Assembly (NCBI RefSeq): GCF_016863295.1
Contig: NZ_BOOP01000018.1
Span: 62,001 to 126,000, forward strand
DNA: 64,000 nucleotides
DNA from: Planotetraspora phitsanulokensis
GTDB lineage: Bacteria; Actinomycetota; Actinomycetes; Streptosporangiales; Streptosporangiaceae
Direction of reading: 5' to 3'
In this document: positions 12,236-48,352 of the stretch, piece after piece
Layout of the letters: the number at the start of each line of letters is the position of its first letter
Position numbering within the stretch: the first letter of the stretch is position 1
The notes under the pieces: model-generated
Told to the model about the DNA's origin: nothing
The model's input: the letters and a program-made list of their open reading frames with translations, nothing else
Database searches by the model: none
Program-made: the position numbers and the translations under genes

Positions 12236-12649
12236 TTGCTCAAGCCCTGCAAACCACTCGGGGTCCTCGCCATAAGTACCCTGTTGATCACAGGTGCCAT
12301 CGCCCTGGCCAGCGCCATCACCACCACTTCCGCCGGCGCCGCAACCGAAGACGTCACTGGCTCAGCCTTTCGCCACGATGCCCTCCTCTCCAATTCCAAT
12401 CCAGGACCCACCAGGAATAAGAACAGGAACAACAACAGACACAAGCAGCGTCAGCACGAACACCAACACGGGCACCAACGCCAGCACCTGCTGCGCGACT
12501 TCACCCACGTCGTGACCCCGTTCCAGAAGACCGACAACCAGTCCAATCCGGTGCAGAAGCAGGACACCGAATCTAAGGCGAAGGCGGCCTACCCGCCCGC
12601 TCCGGCGAGGCCTGCGCCGTTCGTCACCCCGCACAAGATCCCGACTTGA
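12236..12649 (+). CDS. Small secreted protein, function unknown
   Basis: 137 aa from a TTG at 12236 preceded by GGGGG at 8 bases. Residues 1-36 form a signal peptide: basic start, hydrophobic core (LGVLAISTLLITGAIALA), then an A-G-A-A cleavage region. The mature part is very polar, rich in Asn, His, Gln, Lys and Arg (about residues 58-90), then rich in proline, without cysteines. It could bind metal or polyanions by composition alone. A strong terminator follows at 12663. It lies inside the 2.1-kb repeat-flanked segment and has AT-richer codons than its neighbours, suggesting transfer. Confidence 0.55.
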   Translation: MLKPCKPLGVLAISTLLITGAIALASAITTTSAGAATEDVTGSAFRHDALLSNSNPGPTRNKNRNNNRHKQRQHEHQHGHQRQHLLRDFTHVVTPFQKTDNQSNPVQKQDTESKAKAAYPPAPARPAPFVTPHKIPT

Positions 12650-12662
12650 CGTCGTGATCGAT

Positions 12663-12688
12663 GCCTCCCCGGTGGCTGCCGGGGAGGC
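12663..12688 (+). terminator. Strong intrinsic-type hairpin
   Basis: Perfect 10-bp stem (GCCTCCCCGG / CCGGGGAGGC) with a six-base loop, starting 14 bases after the stop of the secreted-protein gene. There is no U-tract, as is common for actinobacterial terminators. Confidence 0.75.
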
Positions 12689-13096
12689 CTCGTCATCCGT
12701 TCGAACGGCAGGAACGGCTAGCTGTACTGCCGCCTGTGATGGTGAACCGCCGGCAGAGGCGACCCGCTGAGTTTCGGCTACGGCTCGGCGGTCCAGGTCG
12801 TGGCCGACCCCGCGGGCCGGCTCGCCGTAGTACTTGGCGGCTGTTCCAGCTCAGCTCGGCGCCCCTGTGCGCGCGGACTTGTATTGTCGCCTGGCGGCCC
12901 ATCGCCTTGTCCGCGCCAGCCGTCCGGCGTTCCTTGCGCGCTGTCCACCGGGAGCGCCAGCGGTAGGCGGCGGCGTGCGCCGTGACGGCGGCGTGTGCGG
13001 CGCGGTCAGGCCGTCTCGGCCTTGTGCCTCATCCGCCTGAGGGCCACGCAGGTGGGCGCTTAATTGATGTGAAAACCAACACCCTGCGACGGTAGC
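12689..13096. other. Degenerate intergenic region upstream of RNase Z
   Basis: About 410 bases without a credible gene. One 11-residue translated stretch at 12791-12823 (plus strand) reads VQVVADPAGRL, which resembles a segment of IS5-family transposases (typically N-V-Q-V-x-A-D-P-x-G-R-L). Flanking translation does not continue the match, so at most this is a worn-down remnant. The last 40 bases before the right repeat are AT-richer and may carry the present RNase Z promoter. Confidence 0.35.
12791..12823 (+). pseudogene. Possible IS5-type transposase remnant
   Basis: The translated stretch VQVVADPAGRL resembles a conserved segment just before the catalytic region of IS5-family transposases. 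No inverted repeats, catalytic residues or further matching sequence were found on either side, so this is a weak call based on one short motif. Confidence 0.2.
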
Positions 13097-13173
13097 TTGG
13101 CGCGCATGACGCGCGAGCTTGTGGTCCTCGGCACGGCGAGCGCCGTGCCCACGCGACATCGGAACCACAACGG
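13097..13173 (+). repeat. Direct repeat, right copy (5-prime end of intact RNase Z gene)
   Basis: Partner of 10951-11027. It carries the start codon and first 21 codons of the intact RNase Z gene. Mismatches to the left copy are at 13100 and 13170 only. Confidence 0.9.
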
Positions 13174-38085: not shown

Positions 38086-39336
38086 CTACGCGAAGGTCTC
38101 CCCTGGCGACTCCAGCAGTGCCTTGAGCGCCCGCAGGAACAGCGCCGCGTCGCGGCCGTTGATGAGCCGGTGGTCGTAGGCCATGCCGATGTTGACGACG
38201 GTCCGGGTGACGACCTCACCCCCGTCGAGCCGGAGCTCGGCCTGGGGGGACGTCACCGCGAGCGCACACGCGTGGCCTGGGAAGATCAGCGGGACGGCCA
38301 GCGTCACGTCGCCGTCGTGATGCAGGGTGACCGCGATGTTGGCCCCGGTCAGGTCGTCCTCCCGGAAGTCCCCGGTCAGGGCGGCCAGCCGATACTCCAT
38401 CAGACGGGTCGCGATCTGCTTCACCGAGCGGCGGGCGGCGTCGTGGACGACGGGCACGTACAGCCCCTCGCCCGCGTCGATCGTCACGCCCACGTGCGGG
38501 GCGTCGGAGAGTACCGCCGACGTGTCGTCCACCAGGGTGGCGAAGCACAGCGGGAAGTCGGCGTGCAGCCGGGCGACGGCGGACGTCACCAGTTCGGGCA
38601 GGCCCACCGGCCGCCTGACCTCCCGGGTCATCCGCGCCGCGAGCTCCAGCAGCGGCCCCGCGTCGGCCTTGACCACCGTGTACGCGGCCGGAATGGTCGC
38701 GTGCGAGACGCGCACGACCTTCGCCACGGCCCGCTGCACCCTCGTGAGCTCGTACGGCCGGCCGGTCACGGCCTGCCCGGACTCTCCGGGCTCCGCGACC
38801 TCCTCCCGGGGCGCCGGTACGGAACGGGAGGCGAGCCTTTCGATGTCGGCGCGCCGCACCACGGCCACACCCAGGGCGCGCACCTGGGCCGGGTCGACGC
38901 CGAGCTCGTCGATCAGCGCCTGCGCGGGAGCCGTGATCAGCGGACCGGTGCCGGCTCCGTCCGCGGAGCCGTCTGTCGCACCACCGGCCGAGGAGCCCCC
39001 GGCCGTCGCACCACCCGCCGAGGAGTCACCGGCCGAAGCTCCGCCGCCCGCCGAGTCACCGGCGGCAGGAGACGCTCCGGGAGACGGCGCGACGGGCCGG
39101 CTCTCGTCGGCGGTGAGGCGGGCCAGCACGGCCCCGGGGGCGCAGTCGGCGTTCAGCGCGAGGACATGCCAGACGAAACCGTCCTCCTCGCTCTCCAGCT
39201 CTTCGGTGGCCTTCGAGGTCTCCAGGACCACGATCGGGTCTCCGGCCTTCACCTGCTGCCCGTCGTCGACCAGCCAGTCGACCAGGACATACGTGGAGTC
39301 GTTGTTGTTGAGCTTGGGCACGCGGATGTCAGTCAC
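38086..39336 (-). CDS. 2-oxoacid dehydrogenase E2-type acyltransferase (lipoyl protein)
   Basis: 416 aa. One N-terminal lipoyl domain (residues 1-78, lipoyl Lys near 42 in ETSKATEE), an Ala/Gly/Ser-rich linker with short tandem repeats (about 80-130), a peripheral-subunit-binding domain (about 132-165), then a catalytic acyltransferase domain ending with DHRLINGRD (His near 389). The usual DHRxxDG motif has Asn where Asp is normal. GTG start at 39336 overlaps the E1-beta stop by eight bases. Likely role: carry an acyl group formed by E1 and pass it on to CoA or a carrier protein. Last gene of the five-gene minus operon. Confidence 0.88.
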   Translation of the reverse strand: MTDIRVPKLNNNDSTYVLVDWLVDDGQQVKAGDPIVVLETSKATEELESEEDGFVWHVLALNADCAPGAVLARLTADESRPVAPSPGASPAAGDSAGGGASAGDSSAGGATAGGSSAGGATDGSADGAGTGPLITAPAQALIDELGVDPAQVRALGVAVVRRADIERLASRSVPAPREEVAEPGESGQAVTGRPYELTRVQRAVAKVVRVSHATIPAAYTVVKADAGPLLELAARMTREVRRPVGLPELVTSAVARLHADFPLCFATLVDDTSAVLSDAPHVGVTIDAGEGLYVPVVHDAARRSVKQIATRLMEYRLAALTGDFREDDLTGANIAVTLHHDGDVTLAVPLIFPGHACALAVTSPQAELRLDGGEVVTRTVVNIGMAYDHRLINGRDAALFLRALKALLESPGETFA

Positions 39337-40324
39337 GCAGGGCCTCCAGCACCGCGTCGTGAATCGTGGAGTCCTGGACGAGCACGGCGCGCTCGAGGTG
39401 CGCGGCCGTAGGGATCACGCTGTCGGCCGAGCTGACCAGCGCCACCGGGCGCCGCAGGTCGTTCCATATCAGCCGGTGGATCCGGTGGGCCACCTCGCTT
39501 CCCCACGTGCCGCCCGCGGTGCCCTCCTCGGCCACCAGTACGGCTCTCGCACCGCGGAGCACCGGCAGCAACGGCTCCGCGTCGAACGGATACAGCCGTG
39601 AGGGGACGAGCAGGCAGCAGGTGACCTCCTGCTCCAGCAGCAGGCCGCGCATGGCCCGGACCGCCCGGTCGACCATCCCGCCGGGAGCGATGATCACGCA
39701 GTCGGCCTTCTCGGGGTCGTCCAGGAAGACCCTGGCCACGTCTTCGGCTCCCGGCATGACGTCGTGCCGGAACAGATCGCCGACGTCGTTCATGTGCCGC
39801 GTGTAGAGGATCTTGTCCTCGAAGAACACGCAGGGCCCGCCGGACGCCAGCATCGCGTCGAACACCTGCCGGTTGTCGTGCAGGGGGGACATCTCGTAGA
39901 CCGACAGGCCCGGCACGCCCACGAAGTGTTTCTGCAGGCTCTGGCTGTGCGTGGGCCCGTATCCGCGTCCGCCGCCGGTCGGGCACCGGACGACCATCCG
40001 GATCGGCACGCGGGAGCCGTACATCGTGACGGACTTGGCGGCGAAGTTGACGATCTGGTCGAACGCGAGCGCCACGAAGTCGCCGAACATGATCTCGACG
40101 ACGGCCGCGTCGCCGCACAGCGCGAGCCCGGCGGCCAGGCCGGTGATGCCGGACTCGCTGATCGGGGTGCCGAGCACCCGTTCGGGGAAGCGGCTGGACA
40201 GCCCTTTTGTGATCTTGAAGGCTCCGCCGTACGGGTCGAGGATGTCCTCGCCGATCACGTAGGCCGACGGGTCCGACTCCAGCAGCCCGTGGAGGGCGGC
40301 GTTGAGGTTCTCCCCCACCCTCAT
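39329..40324 (-). CDS. 2-oxoacid dehydrogenase E1 component, beta subunit
   Basis: 331 aa, of the AcoB/PdhB/BkdB type: GEDILDPYGGAFKITKGL, then the SESGITGLAAGLAL segment, the GGGRGYGPTHSQSLQKHF segment and a C-terminal transketolase-like domain with EEGTAGGTWGSEV. With E1-alpha it forms the thiamine-diphosphate site. Starting at the ATG at 40324 gives a four-base overlap with E1-alpha (a GTG at 40333 is an alternative). Length is normal. Substrate cannot be predicted. Confidence 0.92.
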   Translation of the reverse strand: MRVGENLNAALHGLLESDPSAYVIGEDILDPYGGAFKITKGLSSRFPERVLGTPISESGITGLAAGLALCGDAAVVEIMFGDFVALAFDQIVNFAAKSVTMYGSRVPIRMVVRCPTGGGRGYGPTHSQSLQKHFVGVPGLSVYEMSPLHDNRQVFDAMLASGGPCVFFEDKILYTRHMNDVGDLFRHDVMPGAEDVARVFLDDPEKADCVIIAPGGMVDRAVRAMRGLLLEQEVTCCLLVPSRLYPFDAEPLLPVLRGARAVLVAEEGTAGGTWGSEVAHRIHRLIWNDLRRPVALVSSADSVIPTAAHLERAVLVQDSTIHDAVLEALRD

Positions 40325-41241
40325 GGTCGCCACCTCGACGGCGGGCGGGCGGAGACCTCACGCACGATCGCGTCGACGCGGGCGCGCTGGGCCTCGTCGG
40401 CGCGGGCGAACCGCTCGGGGTCGGCCTCGGCGTACAGGCGGTACCAGTCGTTGTCGCGGGCCTGCCGTACGGTCTCCGGATCGCGGGTGTCGTCGCCCTT
40501 GCTGTGCGGGCCGAGGCGGTGGGTGGCGAACTCCACGACCAGCGGCCCGCCTCCGGACCGCACCCCGGCGACAAGCGGCGCGAGCTCGTCCCTGATGGCG
40601 CTCAGATCGGAGGACTCGATGCCGTGGTGGCGCACGCCGAACGCCTCTGCGCGGGCGCGGACGGTACCGGCCATCTGACGGGTGGTGGGTGTCGACTGGG
40701 CGATCCCGTTGTTCTCGACGATCACGAGCAGCGGGAGACGCCAGAGCGAGGACAGGTTGAGCGCCTCGTAGACCGCGCCCTCGCCCCACGTGCCGTCGCC
40801 GATGAAGACGCAGGCGAGCGCGCCGGGCTCGGTGCGCTTGAGGTGCAGCGCGACGCCCGCGGCCACCGGGAGGCTCTCCCCCTGCACGCCGGTGGAGACG
40901 TATCGGTCGCGCAGGATGTGCTGGCTGCCGCCCACCCCGCCGCAGACCGCGCCCTCCCGCCCCATGATCTCGGCGAGGAGCCCCGCCGGGTCGTCGAACC
41001 TGGCCAGGTAGTGGCCGTGCCCCCGGTGGTTGCCGAAGACGTGGTCGGCGTCGGCGAGCAGCCGCCGGAGCGCGACGGGGACGTACTCCTGCCCGAGGCA
41101 GGTGTGCGTCGTGCCGTTGAGCTCGCCGCGCCCGAACAGGTCGAGCAGCGCCAGTTCGAAGTGCCGGATCAGGAGCAGCAGGGCGAGGTCGTCGTCATCG
41201 GCCCGCCGCGCGTGGAGGACGGCCGCGCCCGTCTCGGTCAC
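40321..41241 (-). CDS. 2-oxoacid dehydrogenase E1 component, alpha subunit
   Basis: 306 aa. The thiamine-diphosphate motif GDG (residues 148-150) ... NN (177-178) is present, with the preceding GGVGGSQHI and GVQGESLPVAAG segments typical of AcoA/PdhA-like proteins. The phosphorylation-loop histidine region (HRLGPHSKGDD) is intact. Shorter than PdhA because the N-terminal extension is minimal. GTG start at 41241 overlaps the stop of the condensation-carrier gene by four bases. With E1-beta it decarboxylates a 2-oxoacid or cleaves an alpha-hydroxyketone and acylates the E2 lipoyl arm. Confidence 0.92.
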   Translation of the reverse strand: MTETGAAVLHARRADDDDLALLLLIRHFELALLDLFGRGELNGTTHTCLGQEYVPVALRRLLADADHVFGNHRGHGHYLARFDDPAGLLAEIMGREGAVCGGVGGSQHILRDRYVSTGVQGESLPVAAGVALHLKRTEPGALACVFIGDGTWGEGAVYEALNLSSLWRLPLLVIVENNGIAQSTPTTRQMAGTVRARAEAFGVRHHGIESSDLSAIRDELAPLVAGVRSGGGPLVVEFATHRLGPHSKGDDTRDPETVRQARDNDWYRLYAEADPERFARADEAQRARVDAIVREVSARPPSRWRP

Positions 41242-42827
41242 CGGCGGCTGCCCGACGCGTCGGGCAGTCCCGGCTCGGTTCCGGCCGCCGCGATGGACTC
41301 AAGGACACCCGCGATGGTCGGCGCGTCGAAGAAGACGTCGAGCGGGACCTCGATGTCCAGGCGCTTGCGCATCCGCGCGATGATCTGGGTGATGGTCAGC
41401 GAATGGCCGCCGAGATCGAAGAGGTCCTCCTCGTCGCCGATCTCGTCGATGCCGAGCACCTCTTGCCAGATGGCCCTGATCTCCTCGGCGAGGTCCGTCT
41501 GGCCGGTACGGCCCGCCGCGATGTCCTCGATGACAGTGTCCGGATTTTTCATGATTGAAGTGAGGTCCTTCGCTATGAGAGTGACATCCGGAAGCGTGCG
41601 CGAGCTGTACTGCATGATCACGTCGAGCCCGTCGGGTCCGTCGACGGCCTGGAGGTGCAGGGTGCTGCGGACCGCGTGGTTGAACGCCGTCCAGTCCACG
41701 GTCGTGTCCACTCCGGCGAACTCGGGCGCCTCCCGCCTCCGGCGATAGCTGACCGAGACGGGCGCCAGAGCCGTACGGGGCCGCAGCCCACGGACGGCGC
41801 GGGCGAGCGGCACCTGGCGGAACCGGTACATGAGCCGCAGGTCGTCGTGGAACCGCCCGGCGAGCCCGGCGACGGTCATGCCGGGGGCGGGCGCCGACCA
41901 CACGGGAAGCTCGTTGACGAACAGGCCGATGTGGTCGCGTACCTCCGGCGTGCGTGTGGACATGTCGACGGCGCACACCGGCTCGGCGTTGCCGTACGAG
42001 AAGAGCAGGGCGTGCACCGACGCGAGGAAGACCTCGAACCGGGAGACGCCCGGAACGTCGCGCAACTCGGCGCGGAAGGCGTGGACGCCGCCTTCCGCGG
42101 CCCCACGTGACCGTGCCGCTCCGGCGGACCCGCCAGACGCCCCAGGCCGTCCGGACAAGCTGGATGCATCAGGCCGTCCGGGCAGACCGGACCCCGGGCC
42201 TGACGCCCCGGACCCGCCGGATCCCCCTGGCGCCCCGGGAAGGACCGGAAGCACGACCTCGCCTGGCTCCCGCCAACGCCCGCGCCAGTAGTCGCCGGCC
42301 TCGCCGAGAACGGCCTGGACCCGTTCCCGCTCCGCCGCCGCGTGGTCCGCGTACGACATCGTGAGGCGGGTGAGCGGTCGCCCGTCGTAGAAGGCGGCCA
42401 GATCGCGGACGAGCACGTCCTTGGACTCGCCGTCGAAGACCAGATGGTGCGCCACGATCAGCAGCACGTGGCGGGAGGACGACACCCGGACGAGCGTGAA
42501 CCGGGCGAGCGGCCCCTTCTCCACGTCGAAGGGCAGCAGGGTCTGCGCGCGCACCAGCGGGCCGAGGTCCTCCGCGGCCGTGACGACGACCTGGGGACGC
42601 TCCGCGGGCACCTCGACCGGTATGCCGTCCCGCTCCTCGATGGCGGTGGCCAGGACCGGGTGGCGCCGCACCAGCGCCTCGCACGCCTGGATCAGCGCGC
42701 AGGCGTCCAGCGGTCCGTCGAAGGTGATCAGCAGCGGCATGTGATAGGCGGATCCCGCCCGGCCCATCCGCTCGGTGAGCCACATCCCCACCTGGGCGAA
42801 CGAGGCCTGCCTCAGGTCGGCGCTCAT
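41238..42827 (-). CDS. NRPS condensation domain fused to a carrier (T) domain
   Basis: 529 aa. Residues 1-440 are a condensation domain with the catalytic HHLVFDG motif (His 127-128, Asp 132). A Gly/Ser/Pro-rich insertion at about 198-247 separates the two halves of the condensation domain. A carrier domain follows (about 445-515) with the phosphopantetheine motif GGHS (Ser 476), and a short tail. No adenylation domain, so the carrier must be loaded by the separate ligase at 42824. ATG at 42827 overlaps the ligase stop by four bases. Likely joins two acyl/aminoacyl chains via an amide bond. Confidence 0.9.
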   Translation of the reverse strand: MSADLRQASFAQVGMWLTERMGRAGSAYHMPLLITFDGPLDACALIQACEALVRRHPVLATAIEERDGIPVEVPAERPQVVVTAAEDLGPLVRAQTLLPFDVEKGPLARFTLVRVSSSRHVLLIVAHHLVFDGESKDVLVRDLAAFYDGRPLTRLTMSYADHAAAERERVQAVLGEAGDYWRGRWREPGEVVLPVLPGAPGGSGGSGASGPGSGLPGRPDASSLSGRPGASGGSAGAARSRGAAEGGVHAFRAELRDVPGVSRFEVFLASVHALLFSYGNAEPVCAVDMSTRTPEVRDHIGLFVNELPVWSAPAPGMTVAGLAGRFHDDLRLMYRFRQVPLARAVRGLRPRTALAPVSVSYRRRREAPEFAGVDTTVDWTAFNHAVRSTLHLQAVDGPDGLDVIMQYSSRTLPDVTLIAKDLTSIMKNPDTVIEDIAAGRTGQTDLAEEIRAIWQEVLGIDEIGDEEDLFDLGGHSLTITQIIARMRKRLDIEVPLDVFFDAPTIAGVLESIAAAGTEPGLPDASGSRR

Positions 42828-44335
42828 GCCCGGGCCCGCAGCGCGCGCTTGTCGACCTTGCCCCCGCGATTGCGTGGAAGGGACTCCATCCTGACGATCT
42901 CCGAGGGGATCTCGTGCTGGGCCAGCCGGTCGCGCAGGAAGGCCCGGATGTCGGCGTCGGGCACCTCGGTCCGCAGGACGACGGCCGCGGCTACGGTCGT
43001 GCCGAGGACGTGATGGGGAAGGCCGTAGGCCGCGGCCTCGACCACCGCGGGATGCTCGTACAGCGCGTTCTCGACCTTCAGGGTTGAAACCTTGAAAGCG
43101 CCCGACTTGACGACGTCGCCGTCGCGGTCGACCAGGTAGAGGTAGCCGTCGTCGTCGAGATACCCGAGGTCGCCCATGCGGATCCAGCCGCCTCGGAAGA
43201 CCTCGGTGCTGGCCGCGGGATCGTCGTAGTACGAGCGGGGCGCGGCCGGTGAGCGCATCCACACCTCGCCGGTCTGGCCGGGCGGGAGGTCCGCGCCCTC
43301 CGGCGAGGCGATGCGGACGTCGCCGCCCGCCGCCGACCTGCCGACGGAATCGGGCCGGTCCGGGTCGAAGAGCATGATCGTCTGCGCCGGGGCCGCCTCG
43401 GTCGAGGTGTAGTAGTTGGTGATCGTCGCCTTCGGGAACATCCGGGTCAGGCCGGACGCGACCGCCGGCGGAAGCGGCGCGGCGGCCGAGCCGAGCAGCA
43501 GCACGCTCGACAGGTCCGGGCCCTCCTGGAGGTTGAGCAACTCGACGGCCATGGCCGGCACGAGGAAGACCGTTCCGGCCCGGTGCCTTTCGATGAGCGC
43601 GGCGAACCGTCCCGGTGTGAAGCGGGGCAGGGTGACGACGGCGGGGTGCGCGGTCAGCGCGTTGACGAGCATCATCTGCCCGGCGTTGGTGCCGATGGGG
43701 AACGCGTGGACCAGATGCCGGGAGTGGGCGAACGCCCGGCGTCGCGGCTGGGTCCGCGCGCCGAAGGCCAGGTTGGCGTGCGTGGCCGCGACGCCCTTCG
43801 CCTTGCCGGTCGTGCCGGACGTGTAGAGGATCTGCGCCATGTCGGCGGGCCTGAGCGTCACCTCAGGCGGCGACATGGAGCCCTCGAGCGGCGGCCTGGA
43901 GCCCTCGGGCGGCGACGTGGAGCTGCCCGCCCTACCCTCGGGCGGCGACGTGGAGCTGCCCGCCCCGCCCTCGGGCGGCGGGCCGTCCCGGCCGGTGAGG
44001 ATCACGGACGCCGAGCAGTGTGCGGCGATCTGCTCGATCTCCGCGGCGGGCATGCGGTCCGACATCGGGACGGCCACCGCGCCCGCCTTCAGCACCCCGA
44101 GGAACGCCACCGCGTAGTCGATCCAGCCGGAACCGGGGTACACCAGTCCGACCCGGTCGCCGCGGCGCACGCCGCGATTCAGCAGGTCGTGGGCCACGGC
44201 GTTCGACCGCGCCTGCCATCGCCCGAAGGTGAGTTCTCCGGACCCGTGCACGATCATCGCAACGGTTTCCGGCTCGGAAGCCGCCCGCGCGGCCAAAATG
44301 TCGGGAAGGGTTGGCGTTTCGAGCACGCTTCTCAA
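42824..44335 (-). CDS. Adenylate-forming ligase (AMP-dependent acyl/amino acid-activating enzyme)
   Basis: 503 aa. Core motifs: A3 YTSGTTGKAKG (about 171-181), the NYYTSTEA segment, GDLGY, the DRD hinge region, and the A10 lysine in GGKVDK (Lys near 493). The sequence around the substrate pocket (PIGTNAGQ) looks like a carboxylic-acid (acyl-CoA synthetase-like) enzyme rather than a typical amino-acid A domain. A 40-residue Gly/Ser/Pro/Glu insertion with tandem repeats (119-158) precedes A3. TTG start at 44335 follows GGGGGG by seven bases. Probably loads a carrier protein in this cluster. Confidence 0.85.
   Translation of the reverse strand: MRSVLETPTLPDILAARAASEPETVAMIVHGSGELTFGRWQARSNAVAHDLLNRGVRRGDRVGLVYPGSGWIDYAVAFLGVLKAGAVAVPMSDRMPAAEIEQIAAHCSASVILTGRDGPPPEGGAGSSTSPPEGRAGSSTSPPEGSRPPLEGSMSPPEVTLRPADMAQILYTSGTTGKAKGVAATHANLAFGARTQPRRRAFAHSRHLVHAFPIGTNAGQMMLVNALTAHPAVVTLPRFTPGRFAALIERHRAGTVFLVPAMAVELLNLQEGPDLSSVLLLGSAAAPLPPAVASGLTRMFPKATITNYYTSTEAAPAQTIMLFDPDRPDSVGRSAAGGDVRIASPEGADLPPGQTGEVWMRSPAAPRSYYDDPAASTEVFRGGWIRMGDLGYLDDDGYLYLVDRDGDVVKSGAFKVSTLKVENALYEHPAVVEAAAYGLPHHVLGTTVAAAVVLRTEVPDADIRAFLRDRLAQHEIPSEIVRMESLPRNRGGKVDKRALRARA
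43876..43980. repeat. In-frame tandem repeats in the ligase gene
   Basis: About three imperfect copies of a GGCGGCGACGTGGAGC-type unit of roughly 33 bp, encoding repeated PPEG and GSSTS segments just before the A3 loop of the ligase. The reading frame is kept. Copy boundaries are approximate. Confidence 0.65.
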
Positions 44336-44856
44336 TTGGCTGCCCCCCGAATGGTTCGGATGATTATCGGACGACCGACGCGCTAGACCATGCCTTACTG
44401 AAAAGGTTGTTTCCAGTTTCCCCAGAGAGCCAGTCTTACATGGGGCACCAACTGGAGACAAGCGATTCCGCACTTCGCGAGGACGCCGCCGCAGGCTTCA
44501 CGGATTGACCAGCGGGTCTTGAGACTGCGACGGAGCCGTGCAAGACTTACGGCCATCCACTAATTGCAAACCTTCTTTTCAGTTAGTAACCGACAAGGCC
44601 TTCGGCCTGGCCATTTCGTCTGCATTCATCCGACCACATGGGGGATCATCCCGGAAATGCATGCCATCTCAGAGATTCGCGCCCTTATGCGCAGGAACGG
44701 TCTTCTTCCCGCGTGAACACCGCCCAGATGAGACCGATCCCCCATGGTCTGGCGAAATCGACCAGCGGTCCCGCGGCCCGGCGATCTCTCCGATCCCCCG
44801 ACGCCGGGACCCGAGGACGGACCCGCTGAGAACGGATCCCTGAGAGCGGAGGCGGA
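44336..44856. promoter_or_regulatory. Divergent control region of the biosynthetic cluster
   Basis: 521 bases, AT-richer than the genes around it. ACTGAAAAGGTTG at 44397-44409 recurs inverted as ACTGAAAAGAAGGTTTG on the minus strand at 44583-44567, so the two operons may each have a site for one regulator. ACTAA (44559) and TTAGT (44583) flank the second copy. A perfect 11-bp inverted repeat, CATGGGGGATC at 44637-44647 and GATCCCCCATG at 44736-44746, brackets 88 bases closer to the plus operon. No regulator gene is in the cluster. The open frames here lack coding character. Confidence 0.5.
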
Positions 44857-45093
44857 ATGCTCAAGGAACGACTGGCGCAACTGGTGTCGGAGGCCTGCGA
44901 CGGGGAGATCACGGCGGCCGAGGCCCTGGGCGCCACCGTCCCCCTGTCCTACCTCGGCGTCACCTCACTGGCCCAGATGCGCCTGATCGACGCGCTCGAG
45001 CGCGAGTACGACATCGAGATCGACCTCGCCGACGACGTCTCGTTCCTCGACAGCGTCGACGGCCTCGCCGCGTGGGTGTCGGCGGCCCGATGA
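44857..45093 (+). CDS. Acyl carrier protein
   Basis: 78 aa. Phosphopantetheine Ser 37 is in the L-G-V-T-S-L-A-Q motif, and downstream R-L-I-D-A-L-E-R-E-Y-D-I-E-I matches helix II-III of carrier proteins. It is free-standing (no fused enzyme). The ATG at 44857 follows GGAGG. Its stop overlaps the start of the condensation gene by four bases. It probably carries the second acyl group of the cluster, from the E2 or from the ligase. Confidence 0.85.
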   Translation: MLKERLAQLVSEACDGEITAAEALGATVPLSYLGVTSLAQMRLIDALEREYDIEIDLADDVSFLDSVDGLAAWVSAAR

Positions 45094-46364
45094 TCACTTT
45101 CACGGGGGCACGCAAGGGCACGGCGCCCCTGACCTGGGGCCAGCGGGCCATCTGGGACGCCATCCAGCGGACCGCGCCCGACGACCACTACTTCAACTTC
45201 GGGCGGATCCTCGAGACGCCGCGGGGGGCGCGGCCCGCCTCGATCGCCCACGTGGCGCGGAGCGTCGGCCTGCTCGTCGAGCGGCACGAGGCGCTGCGCA
45301 CGCTGATCGGGCCCGGCCCGGTCCAGGACCTGCGCGAGCGCGGCGAACTGCCCCTCCGGATCGCGGTGGACGCGGAGCCCCGCGCCGTCCTCGCAGAGTT
45401 GTCCGCGACCGCCTTCGACTACGCCGCCGAGTGGCCGGTCCGGGTCGCCTTCGTGACCAGTGGCGACGAGGTCACGCACGTCGTGCTCGTGTTCTGCCAC
45501 CTGGCCGCCGACGGGATCGGCGCGGAGGAGGTCGTCCGCGATCTGCGACTGCTCCTTCTGCGCGGAGGCCTGGGCGGCGGCCCTCCCCCGCAGCCGTTCG
45601 ACCTCGCCGAGTGGCAGGCGTCGCCCGCGGGCCGGCGGCAGGCGGCGGGCGCGGCCGCGTTCTGGGAGCGCGAACACCGCAGGATGCCGCCCACGATGTT
45701 CCACGTCCCCTCGGGAGCGGCGGAGCACCCGCCCGTCTGGCGGGCCACGCTCAGCTCGCCGGCGGCCGACCTGGCCGCCCAGCGCCTTGCCGTACGGCAT
45801 GGCACGAGCACCTCGACCGTGGTGCTCACCGCCGTCGGGACGCTGGTCGCGGAGGTCACGGGACACGAGACCGTCACCGTGCTGCCCATCGTCAGCAACC
45901 GCTTCCGTGCCACGACGCGCACGGCGGTGACCACGCTGTCGCAGGAAGGGCTGTTCGTCCTCGAAGCGGGCAAGTCCCGGTTCACCGACCTGCTTGCCGC
46001 GTCGGGCCCCGCGGTGTTGCGGGCCTACCGCAGCGCCTACCACGACCCGGCCGACCGTGAGCGGGTCGTCGCGGGGGCGGCCCGCGAGCGCGGCACCCCG
46101 ATCCACCCGTACTGCTGTTTCAACGACATGCGCTTCGTCGAGCAGGCGGTCTACCGCGACGAGGAGCTGATCCGCCGGGCGCTGCCCGAGACCTCCCTGT
46201 CCTGGCCGCTCAGCCAGGACAAGCTGAACTGCCGTTTCTGCGTGCACCTCGCGGGCGCCGGGCAGATCTCGCTCACCGCCGACACCCGGTGGTTGTCCCG
46301 GCCGGACATCGAGCGGTTCCTGCTCGGCCTGGAGAGGATGCTCGTCGAGGCGGCTCTCCGGTGA
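45090..46364 (+). CDS. Stand-alone condensation-domain protein
   Basis: 424 aa with the chloramphenicol-acetyltransferase-like fold of NRPS condensation enzymes. The active-site motif reads C-H-L-A-A-D-G (His 137, Asp 141) where H-H-x3-D-G is usual; the catalytic second His and Asp are kept. It lacks a carrier domain. It is coupled to the ACP gene (ATGA) and to the following gene. Likely transfers an acyl group held on a carrier protein to an amine (or hydroxyl). Confidence 0.85.
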   Translation: MITFTGARKGTAPLTWGQRAIWDAIQRTAPDDHYFNFGRILETPRGARPASIAHVARSVGLLVERHEALRTLIGPGPVQDLRERGELPLRIAVDAEPRAVLAELSATAFDYAAEWPVRVAFVTSGDEVTHVVLVFCHLAADGIGAEEVVRDLRLLLLRGGLGGGPPPQPFDLAEWQASPAGRRQAAGAAAFWEREHRRMPPTMFHVPSGAAEHPPVWRATLSSPAADLAAQRLAVRHGTSTSTVVLTAVGTLVAEVTGHETVTVLPIVSNRFRATTRTAVTTLSQEGLFVLEAGKSRFTDLLAASGPAVLRAYRSAYHDPADRERVVAGAARERGTPIHPYCCFNDMRFVEQAVYRDEELIRRALPETSLSWPLSQDKLNCRFCVHLAGAGQISLTADTRWLSRPDIERFLLGLERMLVEAALR

Positions 46365-48352
46365 CGGTCCGCGCCCACGCCACCGCCACCTCCTGCGCGC
46401 AGGGCGGGGAACTGGGCTTCCGCCTGGACACCGCCGAGCCGGTGGGCGTGACCGTCCACGACGCGACCAGCGACCGGCTCGTCCTGGCGGCCACGGTCCG
46501 CGGCCCGTCCTGGACGTTGCGCGTGCCCGGGGACTGGCCGAGCTCGCTCTACCGGGCGCGGTTCGTCGCCGGCCCTCCGGAGCCGGACGTGCTCGTCCCC
46601 CGGCCCACGGGCGACCTGCCCGGTGTCGGCACGTCGCCCGACGACGAGGTCTACTTCGTCGTACGGCAGGCCACTCCGGGGTCGACCTCGCCCATCCTGG
46701 TGTCCGTCCCGTTCACCACGTGGCAGGCGTACAACCGGGCGGGCGTCCCCGGGGAGAGCCTCTACTGGACCGAGCAGCCCGACCGCGCGTCCCGTGTGAC
46801 GTTCGACCGGCCCGGCGGCGGGCCGCCTCCCGAGCGGTGGGAGGACGGGCTGCTGCGCTGGCTCGCGCCGGCCGGGTACACCGTCGAGTACTGCTCCGGC
46901 CTCGACCTGGAGCCCGGCCTGCTCGCCGCGTACCGCCTGCTGATCGTCAACGGGCACGACGAGTACTGGTCGGCGGGCATGCGCGACGCCTGTGAGGGGT
47001 TCGCCAGACGCGGCGGGAACATCGCCTTCTTCTCCGGGAACACGTGCTGGTGGCAGATCCGCGTCGAGGGCCGCACCATGGTGTGCCATCGCGATCCGCT
47101 GACCGATCCCGTGGACGACCCCGCCCTGACCACGGTCGAGTGGTCGAGCGCGCCCGTCTCCCGGCCGGAGAACTCGCTGACCGGGGTCAGCTTCCGTAAC
47201 GGCGCGGGCACCTGGGGGCCGTCCATGACGCTGATGCGGGAGGAGTCGTACACCGCGCGGTTCGCCGCGCACTGGGTGTTCGAGGGGACGGGCCTGACAG
47301 ACGGCGACAAGTTCGGGCAGGGCTCGCTCGGCTACGAGACCGACGCCGCCGAGTTCGCCGAGGTGATGGGGATCCCCCGGGTGACCTGCCGGGACGGCAC
47401 GCCCTCGACGTTCGTCGTGCTCGCGACGGCCGACCTGCGGCACTGGAGCTCCGGCGGGCAAGGCGGCTGGGCCACGATGGGCGTCTTCTCCCTCGGCCGC
47501 GGCACGGTCTTCAACGCGGCCACCGTCAACTGGGGGAACACCATCCACGATCCAGTTGTGGAGCGGATCACGCGGAACGTCATAGACCGGCTGTCCCGGC
47601 CGCCCGCACCCGGCTGGGAGGTCATCGGCCCGGTCGCCGACGTCCGCGCGCTGGCCGGCTGCGGCTCGGCGCTGTACGCCGTGAGCGCCGACGGCGTGCT
47701 GCTCGCCCGCGAGTTGTGCGGCCAGAACATGCAGTGGATGCCGACCGGCCGTGCGGGGGGCGTTCTGTGCCTGGACGCCCCGCGCGAGGCAGGCTCCGGC
47801 TTCGGCACCGGCCTGTACGGTGTGACCGCCGAGGGCGTGCTCCGCTACCGCGAGGCCGCGCCGAGCCCGGCGGGCACAGCGATGGACACGGCGACGGGCA
47901 TGTTGACGGGCATGTTGACGGGCACGTTGACGGGCACGGCCGGATCACCGGGGTGGGCCGGGGGCACGGGCGAGTGGACCGACCTGGGCACGGCGCCCGA
48001 CGGCACGATCGCCCTCGCGGTGCAGGACGGGACGTTCTTCGCGGCCACCTCGGCGGGACGCCTGTGGGCGGTGACCTTCGCCGAGCTCGCCGCGTCCCCG
48101 CGAGCCGATTGGCACGACGCCGGGGACTCGGCCGGCGCCGTCTGCCTGAGCGGGAGCAACGGCCGGGTCTACTCCCTGGGAGCCGACCACCTGATCCGCG
48201 CCCGGCTGCCCGTCCCCGTCCCCGCCGCGTGGTCGCTCGTCGGCGAAGCCCCCGGAGCGGCGGTCCTGACCGCCCACGCGGGGCTGCTCGTCACGGCCGC
48301 GAGCGGCCAGCCGTTGCGGTGGCGGCCCGCCGCGACCTTCATCGCCCGCTAG
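46361..48352 (+). CDS. N,N-dimethylformamidase beta-subunit-like protein
   Basis: 663 aa. The central and C-terminal region has the DmfA2-type signature: ILVSVPFTTWQAYNRAG, VNGHDEYWSAGMRDACE and RGGNIAFFSGNTCWWQ, plus VFNAATVNWGNT, as in the large subunit of dimethylformamidase. The last 200 residues form a tryptophan-rich beta-repeat region (beta-propeller-like), interrupted by a Thr/Gly/Met-Leu repeat. No signal peptide. It is the third gene of the plus operon, overlapping the condensation gene by four bases. It may hydrolyse or make an amide in the product. Confidence 0.8.
   Translation: MTVRAHATATSCAQGGELGFRLDTAEPVGVTVHDATSDRLVLAATVRGPSWTLRVPGDWPSSLYRARFVAGPPEPDVLVPRPTGDLPGVGTSPDDEVYFVVRQATPGSTSPILVSVPFTTWQAYNRAGVPGESLYWTEQPDRASRVTFDRPGGGPPPERWEDGLLRWLAPAGYTVEYCSGLDLEPGLLAAYRLLIVNGHDEYWSAGMRDACEGFARRGGNIAFFSGNTCWWQIRVEGRTMVCHRDPLTDPVDDPALTTVEWSSAPVSRPENSLTGVSFRNGAGTWGPSMTLMREESYTARFAAHWVFEGTGLTDGDKFGQGSLGYETDAAEFAEVMGIPRVTCRDGTPSTFVVLATADLRHWSSGGQGGWATMGVFSLGRGTVFNAATVNWGNTIHDPVVERITRNVIDRLSRPPAPGWEVIGPVADVRALAGCGSALYAVSADGVLLARELCGQNMQWMPTGRAGGVLCLDAPREAGSGFGTGLYGVTAEGVLRYREAAPSPAGTAMDTATGMLTGMLTGTLTGTAGSPGWAGGTGEWTDLGTAPDGTIALAVQDGTFFAATSAGRLWAVTFAELAASPRADWHDAGDSAGAVCLSGSNGRVYSLGADHLIRARLPVPVPAAWSLVGEAPGAAVLTAHAGLLVTAASGQPLRWRPAATFIAR
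47893..47940 (+). repeat. 12-bp microsatellite, about four units, in frame
   Basis: Four copies of GACGGGCATGTT (third and fourth with one or two changes) within the DMFase-like gene, encoding T-G-M-L repeats. Reading frame is preserved. Confidence 0.85.

Follow-up and report, generated by a model that had tools for sequence, protein, structure and literature searches.

The window analysed here is a 64,000-nucleotide stretch of the Planotetraspora phitsanulokensis genome (contig NZ_BOOP01000018.1, positions 62,001 to 126,000) and encodes, in three adjoining minus-strand genes, the E1-alpha, E1-beta and E2 subunits of a dehydrogenase-type complex. We conclude that this trio probably forms an E1/E2 complex that primes a carrier protein, of the kind represented by QncN/QncL, NapB/NapD and SclQ2-4. 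All three open reading frames are complete, and together they contain the following features:

40321-41241, minus strand: E1-alpha, the thiamine diphosphate (ThDP)-binding subunit, 306 amino acids (Pfam E1_dh, 1.5e-40), with family motif GPHSKGDD
39329-40333, minus strand: E1-beta, 334 amino acids (Pfam Transket_pyr, 1.4e-23, and Transketolase_C)
39923-39967, minus strand: E1-beta signature RGYGPTHSQSLQKHF, residues 123-137
38086-39336, minus strand: E2, 416 amino acids, with lipoyl, altered docking-like and acyltransferase domains (Pfam 2-oxoacid_dh, 1.3e-36, and Biotin_lipoyl, 7.1e-10)
39208-39222, minus strand: E2 lipoyl site ETSKA (Lys42)
38827-38952, minus strand: E2 docking-domain relic, residues 129-170, lacking the GxGxxG loop
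38155-38175, minus strand: E2 motif DHRLING, residues 388-394, with the Asn393 codon at 38158-38160

The window E2 retains an intact catalytic Asp-His pair and the lipoyl lysine. Its predicted model (mean pLDDT 81.6) matched E2 catalytic cores with Z-scores up to 27.6 and a root-mean-square deviation of 2.1 over 205 residues, a model-based match that confirms the E2 fold and is uninformative on the acceptor.

We compared the trio with a family set consisting of the best 80 of at least 533 relatives from an E1-alpha alignment scan of named genomes, together with ten Streptomyces regions and five plasmid records; genes at these loci were called by a simple codon-usage script, and their starts are approximate. 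In a tree of 80 E2 sequences built with the variable motif residue masked, all 31 sequences with asparagine at that residue fall on one side of a single branch (SH-aLRT 100). The window belongs to this clade, as do a scleric-acid-type locus (L086) and a naphthyridinomycin-type locus (L249), which serve as proxies for the two cluster layouts. Window E1-alpha and E1-beta are 62-69% and 56-60% identical, respectively, to proteins of seven Streptomyces family loci.

Carrier domains accompany the cassettes, lying within 3 kb of the trio at 87 of 95 loci while at 51 of the 95 loci with a called E1-alpha a carrier is its immediate same-strand neighbour. These 51 adjacent carriers comprise 28 fused behind another domain, 14 that stand alone upstream and nine that stand alone downstream. 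The window combines E1-alpha, E1-beta and a lipoyl-bearing E2 with a carrier and no E3 in one cassette, and its carrier is of the fused form, behind a condensation (C) domain. Because this fused carrier sits directly beside E1-alpha, the carrier (T) domain of the C-T protein is by position the likeliest acceptor, with a stand-alone carrier protein as the alternative:

41238-42827, minus strand: C-T protein, with a condensation domain (HHLVFDG) and a carrier domain at about 41298-41486 (Pfam Condensation and PP-binding; start from the gene caller), the proposed acceptor
44857-45093, plus strand: stand-alone carrier protein, 78 amino acids (PP-binding, 9.6e-08)

Comparison with known systems places the window closest by layout to clusters that have been assigned a two-carbon unit. 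The accessible text on scleric acid credits SclQ1-4 and QncN/L/M with forming an acyl carrier protein (ACP)-bound C2-glycolicacyl unit, and SclQ1-4 resemble the window in having separate E1-alpha, E1-beta and E2 genes (sizes 305, 338 and 386) with a carrier and, in the accessible part of the printed gene table, no E3 (PMC6335953). Locus L086, which matches SclN, T, A, D, I, P and Q1-Q4 by domain and size, carries the E2 motif DHRVING. The window differs in that its carrier lies behind a C domain and in that its trio is flanked by no condensation-adenylation-peptidyl carrier (C-A-PCP) nonribosomal peptide synthetase (NRPS), phosphopantetheinyl transferase or benzoate genes. The dnacin and naphthyridinomycin clusters are described, in the accessible text, as containing genes for E1-alpha, ACP, a fused E1-beta-E2, ketoacyl synthase III (KASIII), a flavin adenine dinucleotide (FAD) hydroxylase and a UvrA-like protein (PMC7570522); loci L247-L250 have the first four side by side, L249 also has the FAD hydroxylase and UvrA-like genes, and all share the Asn. 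NapB/NapC/NapD, DinU/T/S and QncN/M/L offer the same E1-alpha, carrier, E1-beta and E2 components, but with E1-beta-E2 fused and followed by KASIII, whereas the window E2 is separate.

Further likenesses are found in RenH/RenI of the renieramycin plasmid (MK748464), which share the E1-beta motif RGYGPTHSQTLEKHF, a separate E2 and a lipoyl site (ETSKT), but have 36.6% E1-beta identity to the window and a Thr in the RenI motif (DHRVLTG). In the accessible text on pepteridine, a carrier and a condensation domain likewise accompany E1/E2 with no E3 at the locus (PMC5384830); that system, likened here by description rather than sequence, uses 2-oxo acid donors and a T-C-E2 fusion, whereas the window E2 is an open reading frame of its own, not fused to T and C domains. 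Catabolic pyruvate and branched-chain complexes share the domain fold, lipoyl lysine and catalytic Asp-His pair, and the window is set apart from them by the lack of a linked E3 and of a recognisable E3-binding domain, by its E1-beta signature and by its separate clade. An open-access literature search, including the accessible text of a Herbidospora paper (PMC4599437), found nothing further on the cassette. A biosynthetic role for the trio is supported, and most likely it is a hitherto unstudied relative of already known building-block enzymes that prime carriers.

Absence of a linked E3 and an altered docking domain

Whether the donor is a 2-oxo acid or a ketose phosphate, such complexes require dihydrolipoamide dehydrogenase (E3). 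The original prediction held that the trio has no E3 of its own, which our searches confirm, and that it might borrow that of the cell. A lipoamide dehydrogenase model gave 37 matches across the genome and none on the contig that holds the window (C18); two matches, on contigs C54 and C1, exceed the curated cut-off. A pattern for the E3 disulfide site, which recovered E. coli lpd and both genomic lpd genes as positive checks, matched at 0 of 103 family loci. With two E3 genes in the genome, borrowing is feasible, and the accessible text of the pepteridine paper makes the same proposal of a host E3 for a carrier primed in place of coenzyme A (CoA) from 2-oxo acid donors (PMC5384830).

The docking domain of the family E2s is altered. 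Pfam E3_binding (PF02817) was detected in 0 of 17 family E2s compared with 18 of 18 control E2s, and a profile match of 96.9% probability nevertheless relates the family domain to the catabolic one. The glycine loop of a docking domain is expected to contact E3 or E1, and the loop pattern GxGxxG is present in 0 of 90 family E2s. Because this loss is conserved and no E3 is linked, it is conceivable, though in our view doubtful, that the whole clade gave up docked E3 and constitutes a separate class of carrier-priming complexes, with a lipoyl arm re-oxidised by free E3 or another oxidant and, in the window cluster, a novel glycolyl-containing metabolite as product. Should loss of the docking loop have a functional effect, the question arises of how carrier-priming complexes recycle the lipoyl arm.

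Donor, acceptor and alternative readings

In the mechanism we propose, E1-alpha and E1-beta would form a two-carbon unit on ThDP as a carbanion-enamine, with a ketose phosphate as the most likely donor, and this unit would be moved with oxidation onto the E2 lipoyl arm by reductive acylation. The E2 acyltransferase domain would then hand over the unit, which is most likely a glycolyl group, to the phosphopantetheine thiol of a carrier. The most probable carrier is the T domain of the C-T protein, whose gene lies immediately upstream. Condensation domains could then use the carrier-bound unit, and the dihydrolipoyl arm would be re-oxidised by the cell's own E3.

Several observations weigh against this carrier-priming reading. 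At eight of 95 loci no carrier lies within 3 kb, although some of these loci are cut by contig ends, and at 43 of 95 no carrier lies directly beside E1-alpha (one more is cut by a contig end). Deletion of sclQ1-4 left residual scleric acid production, according to the accessible text (PMC6335953), and we judged kinship to QncN/QncL, NapB/NapD and SclQ through the look-alike loci L086 and L249 rather than through the original proteins. The catabolic E2p of Azotobacter vinelandii has the same motif asparagine (DHRVING, PDB 1eaa). Transketolase profiles scored family E1-beta at only about 36 bits compared with 60.1-83.4 bits for controls, which does not favour a ketose donor; family E1-alpha scored 42.7-59.5 bits compared with 33.8-44.8 bits for three catabolic controls.

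The low transketolase-likeness of E1-beta is a point in favour of an alternative in which the 2-oxo acid pyruvate, or else a branched-chain keto acid, is the donor and an acetyl or other acyl group is placed on the carrier, as has been proposed for pepteridine. In profile comparisons the pyruvate dehydrogenase E1 models come closest, and pepteridine, as far as its accessible text describes it, is a precedent. Those named clusters that are most similar in layout (scleric acid and naphthyridinomycin/dnacin) are, in contrast, assigned a C2 hydroxyl unit in the accessible parts of their reports, and three residues around the catalytic His of E1-beta are invariant in the family and rare or absent in catabolic E1-beta: all 95 family rows carry R123, K135 and H136 (rounded frequency 1.00), whereas none of 44 controls has K135 or H136 and 7% have R123. 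These control rows (13 for E1-alpha and 44 for E1-beta) came from fetched loci, many of them incomplete. That the three residues help to bind a sugar phosphate is no more than a conjecture, and we consider a 2-oxo acid donor unlikely.

An ordinary acyl-CoA-forming complex that supplies its precursor as a CoA thioester would share the domains and fold of catabolic E2 cores, as the window E2 does. However, the trio scores far below the curated NCBIfam pyruvate/2-oxoglutarate cut-offs (E1-alpha, 179.8 against 393.85 bits; E1-beta, 169.3 against 321 bits; E2, 110.6 against 449 bits), E3 is not linked, the docking loop is lost, and C, T and adenylation (A) genes are linked, all of which make such a complex very unlikely.

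Asparagine in the E2 motif and better family markers

The original prediction drew attention to the E2 motif, reading it as DHRLING with Asn in place of the Asp next to the catalytic His. The motif is present as read and the altered residue is real (N393), but the Asp adjoining the His (D388) is kept, and N393 lies four residues past the His. Compared with the active-site residues of E. coli E2o, the first two are kept (D388 and H389) and the third differs.

As a mark of a subgroup, the Asn holds up among the E2s sampled. In a profile-based count over 103 family loci (including three pairs that represent the same genome in two collections), 98 have a readable E2 C-terminus, and 96 of these have Asn; the other two, RenI and a Nonomuraea gerenzanensis protein, have Thr. 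The same position in 119 other E2s is Asp in 89, Gln in 26, and Asn, Gly, Tyr and unreadable in one each. These controls form two sets. In the first, 93 of 105 PF00198 places were read, the remaining 12 being six family loci read elsewhere, three of OdhA/KGD type and three fragments; removal of L196 as a family member (302 bits) left 92, with Asp 69, Gln 21, Asn 1 and Gly 1. The second contains 27 of 30 loci after removal of three family loci, with Asp 20, Gln 5, Tyr 1 and none 1. The control sample is actinobacterial apart from one cyanobacterium, whose E2 has the Tyr, and misses Asn elsewhere, as in A. vinelandii. We take the Gln rows to be long frames of OdhA/KGD type, the actinobacterial E2-E1 fusions. 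The sole control with Asn (L197) was not matched by the E2 profile of the family, and its sequence is divided over two frames.

As a sign of the acceptor, the Asn fares differently. The original prediction allowed that Asn, if widespread in catabolic acetoin or branched-chain E2s, would deprive the motif of diagnostic value, and the catabolic A. vinelandii E2p is a case of this at least in kind. The related PDB entry 1dpc has DHRVIDG and is presumably an Asn614Asp mutant, because the titles of 1dpb-1dpd mention Asn614. Since the A. vinelandii E2p carries Asn, the residue is compatible with a catabolic enzyme that uses CoA. In the accessible text on E. coli E2o, Asp379Ala retains 9.5% activity and the neighbouring Asp-His pair matters most; the accessible variant list contains Asp379Ala and not Asp379Asn. 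The possibility that Asn itself makes E2 use a carrier protein in place of CoA draws on its near-confinement to the family, and is set against the A. vinelandii Asn, the Thr of two family members, the Gln of OdhA/KGD-type fusions, the cyanobacterial Tyr, the residual activity of Asp379Ala and the intact Asp-His pair; we regard it as exceedingly unlikely. From these alignments, we judge the motif question settled: the Asn tracks the clade and does not reveal the acceptor. A carrier protein as acceptor, which had been suggested from the motif, is probably right for other reasons, namely the position of the trio beside carrier domains and its grouping with naphthyridinomycin- and scleric-acid-type loci.

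Judged by sequence conservation, two other features appear to mark the family better than Asn: loss of the docking glycine loop and the E1-beta motif RGYGPTHSQxxxKxF, which is kept in RenH and has Tyr for His in a Paenibacillus plasmid protein. The lipoyl site ETSK is also found in nearly all family E2s. Such markers are useful for finding further carrier-priming E1/E2 cassettes.

A swapped salt bridge between residues 201 and 393 was considered and rejected. The pairs in the sampled E2s include Gln-Asn (95), Arg-Asp (84) and Ala-Gln (18), and the Arg-Asp pairing fails generally, with E. coli AceF aligning Gln-Asp and RenI Lys-Thr. At L257, around 12494-13173, an E2-like gene that does not belong to the family reads DHRVLNG; it is split and possibly frameshifted.

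Genomic neighbourhood and distribution

The trio is last in a minus-strand operon whose gene order is acyl-activating enzyme, C-T protein, E1-alpha, E1-beta and E2, with overlapping ends. The stand-alone carrier gene and the two genes that follow it lie on the opposite strand and are divergent from this operon:

42824-44473, minus strand: AMP-forming acyl-activating enzyme (Pfam AMP-binding, 3.3e-66, and orthologues; start uncertain, homology from near 44347)
45072-46364, plus strand: stand-alone condensation-type protein (Pfam Condensation, 3.5e-13)
46289-48352, plus strand: DMFA2_C protein, dimethylformamidase beta-subunit-like (Pfam, 2.8e-69)

The cassette recurs within the genus. Window E1-alpha is 92% identical to its counterparts in P. 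silvatica and P. mira, and a close E1-beta relative occurs in three of four other Planotetraspora genomes searched. At L030, in another genus, a cassette occupies the homologous site, between ROK/dipeptidase-like genes and an Lhr helicase gene, and there is no difference between its E2 and that of locus L044 from Sinosporangium album. A decayed, inactive cassette has nothing direct in its favour beyond a genome of the same genus (G001) without a close relative, and the open frames, the E1-alpha and E1-beta identity of about 92-96% across three further genomes from this genus and the shared site in another genus make it a negligible prospect. Carrier-priming E1/E2 cassettes recur in Streptosporangiaceae among the best relatives, and 11 of the 295 Streptomyces genomes sampled contain a family member.

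The surroundings of other family cassettes vary. In four Streptomyces loci (L242, L243, L244 and L251), a small carrier protein flanks the trio on either side, and KASIII and another synthase-like gene accompany it, a layout that suggests polyketide use of the unit made by E1/E2. Four Lentzea/Saccharopolyspora-type cassettes (L049, L052, L053 and L054) have no carrier detected within 3 kb. A Paenibacillus polymyxa plasmid (L259:3585-12459) carries a family E1/E2 cassette that is accompanied by carrier proteins as well as a gene for a thioester reductase. Genes for NRPS proteins of about 1850 amino acids, in which the domains C-A-T-thioesterase are continued in frame by a major facilitator transporter, lie beside the cassettes at L041:13081-18627 and L060:3826-9411, and NRPS genes of similar size adjoin other Streptosporangiaceae cassettes. 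The DMFA2_C protein is a likely member of the window cluster; its gene is found with the cassette at two of the three loci from the same genus (the third region ends early), and at 15 of 95 loci a relative is encoded no more than 10 kb from the cassette.

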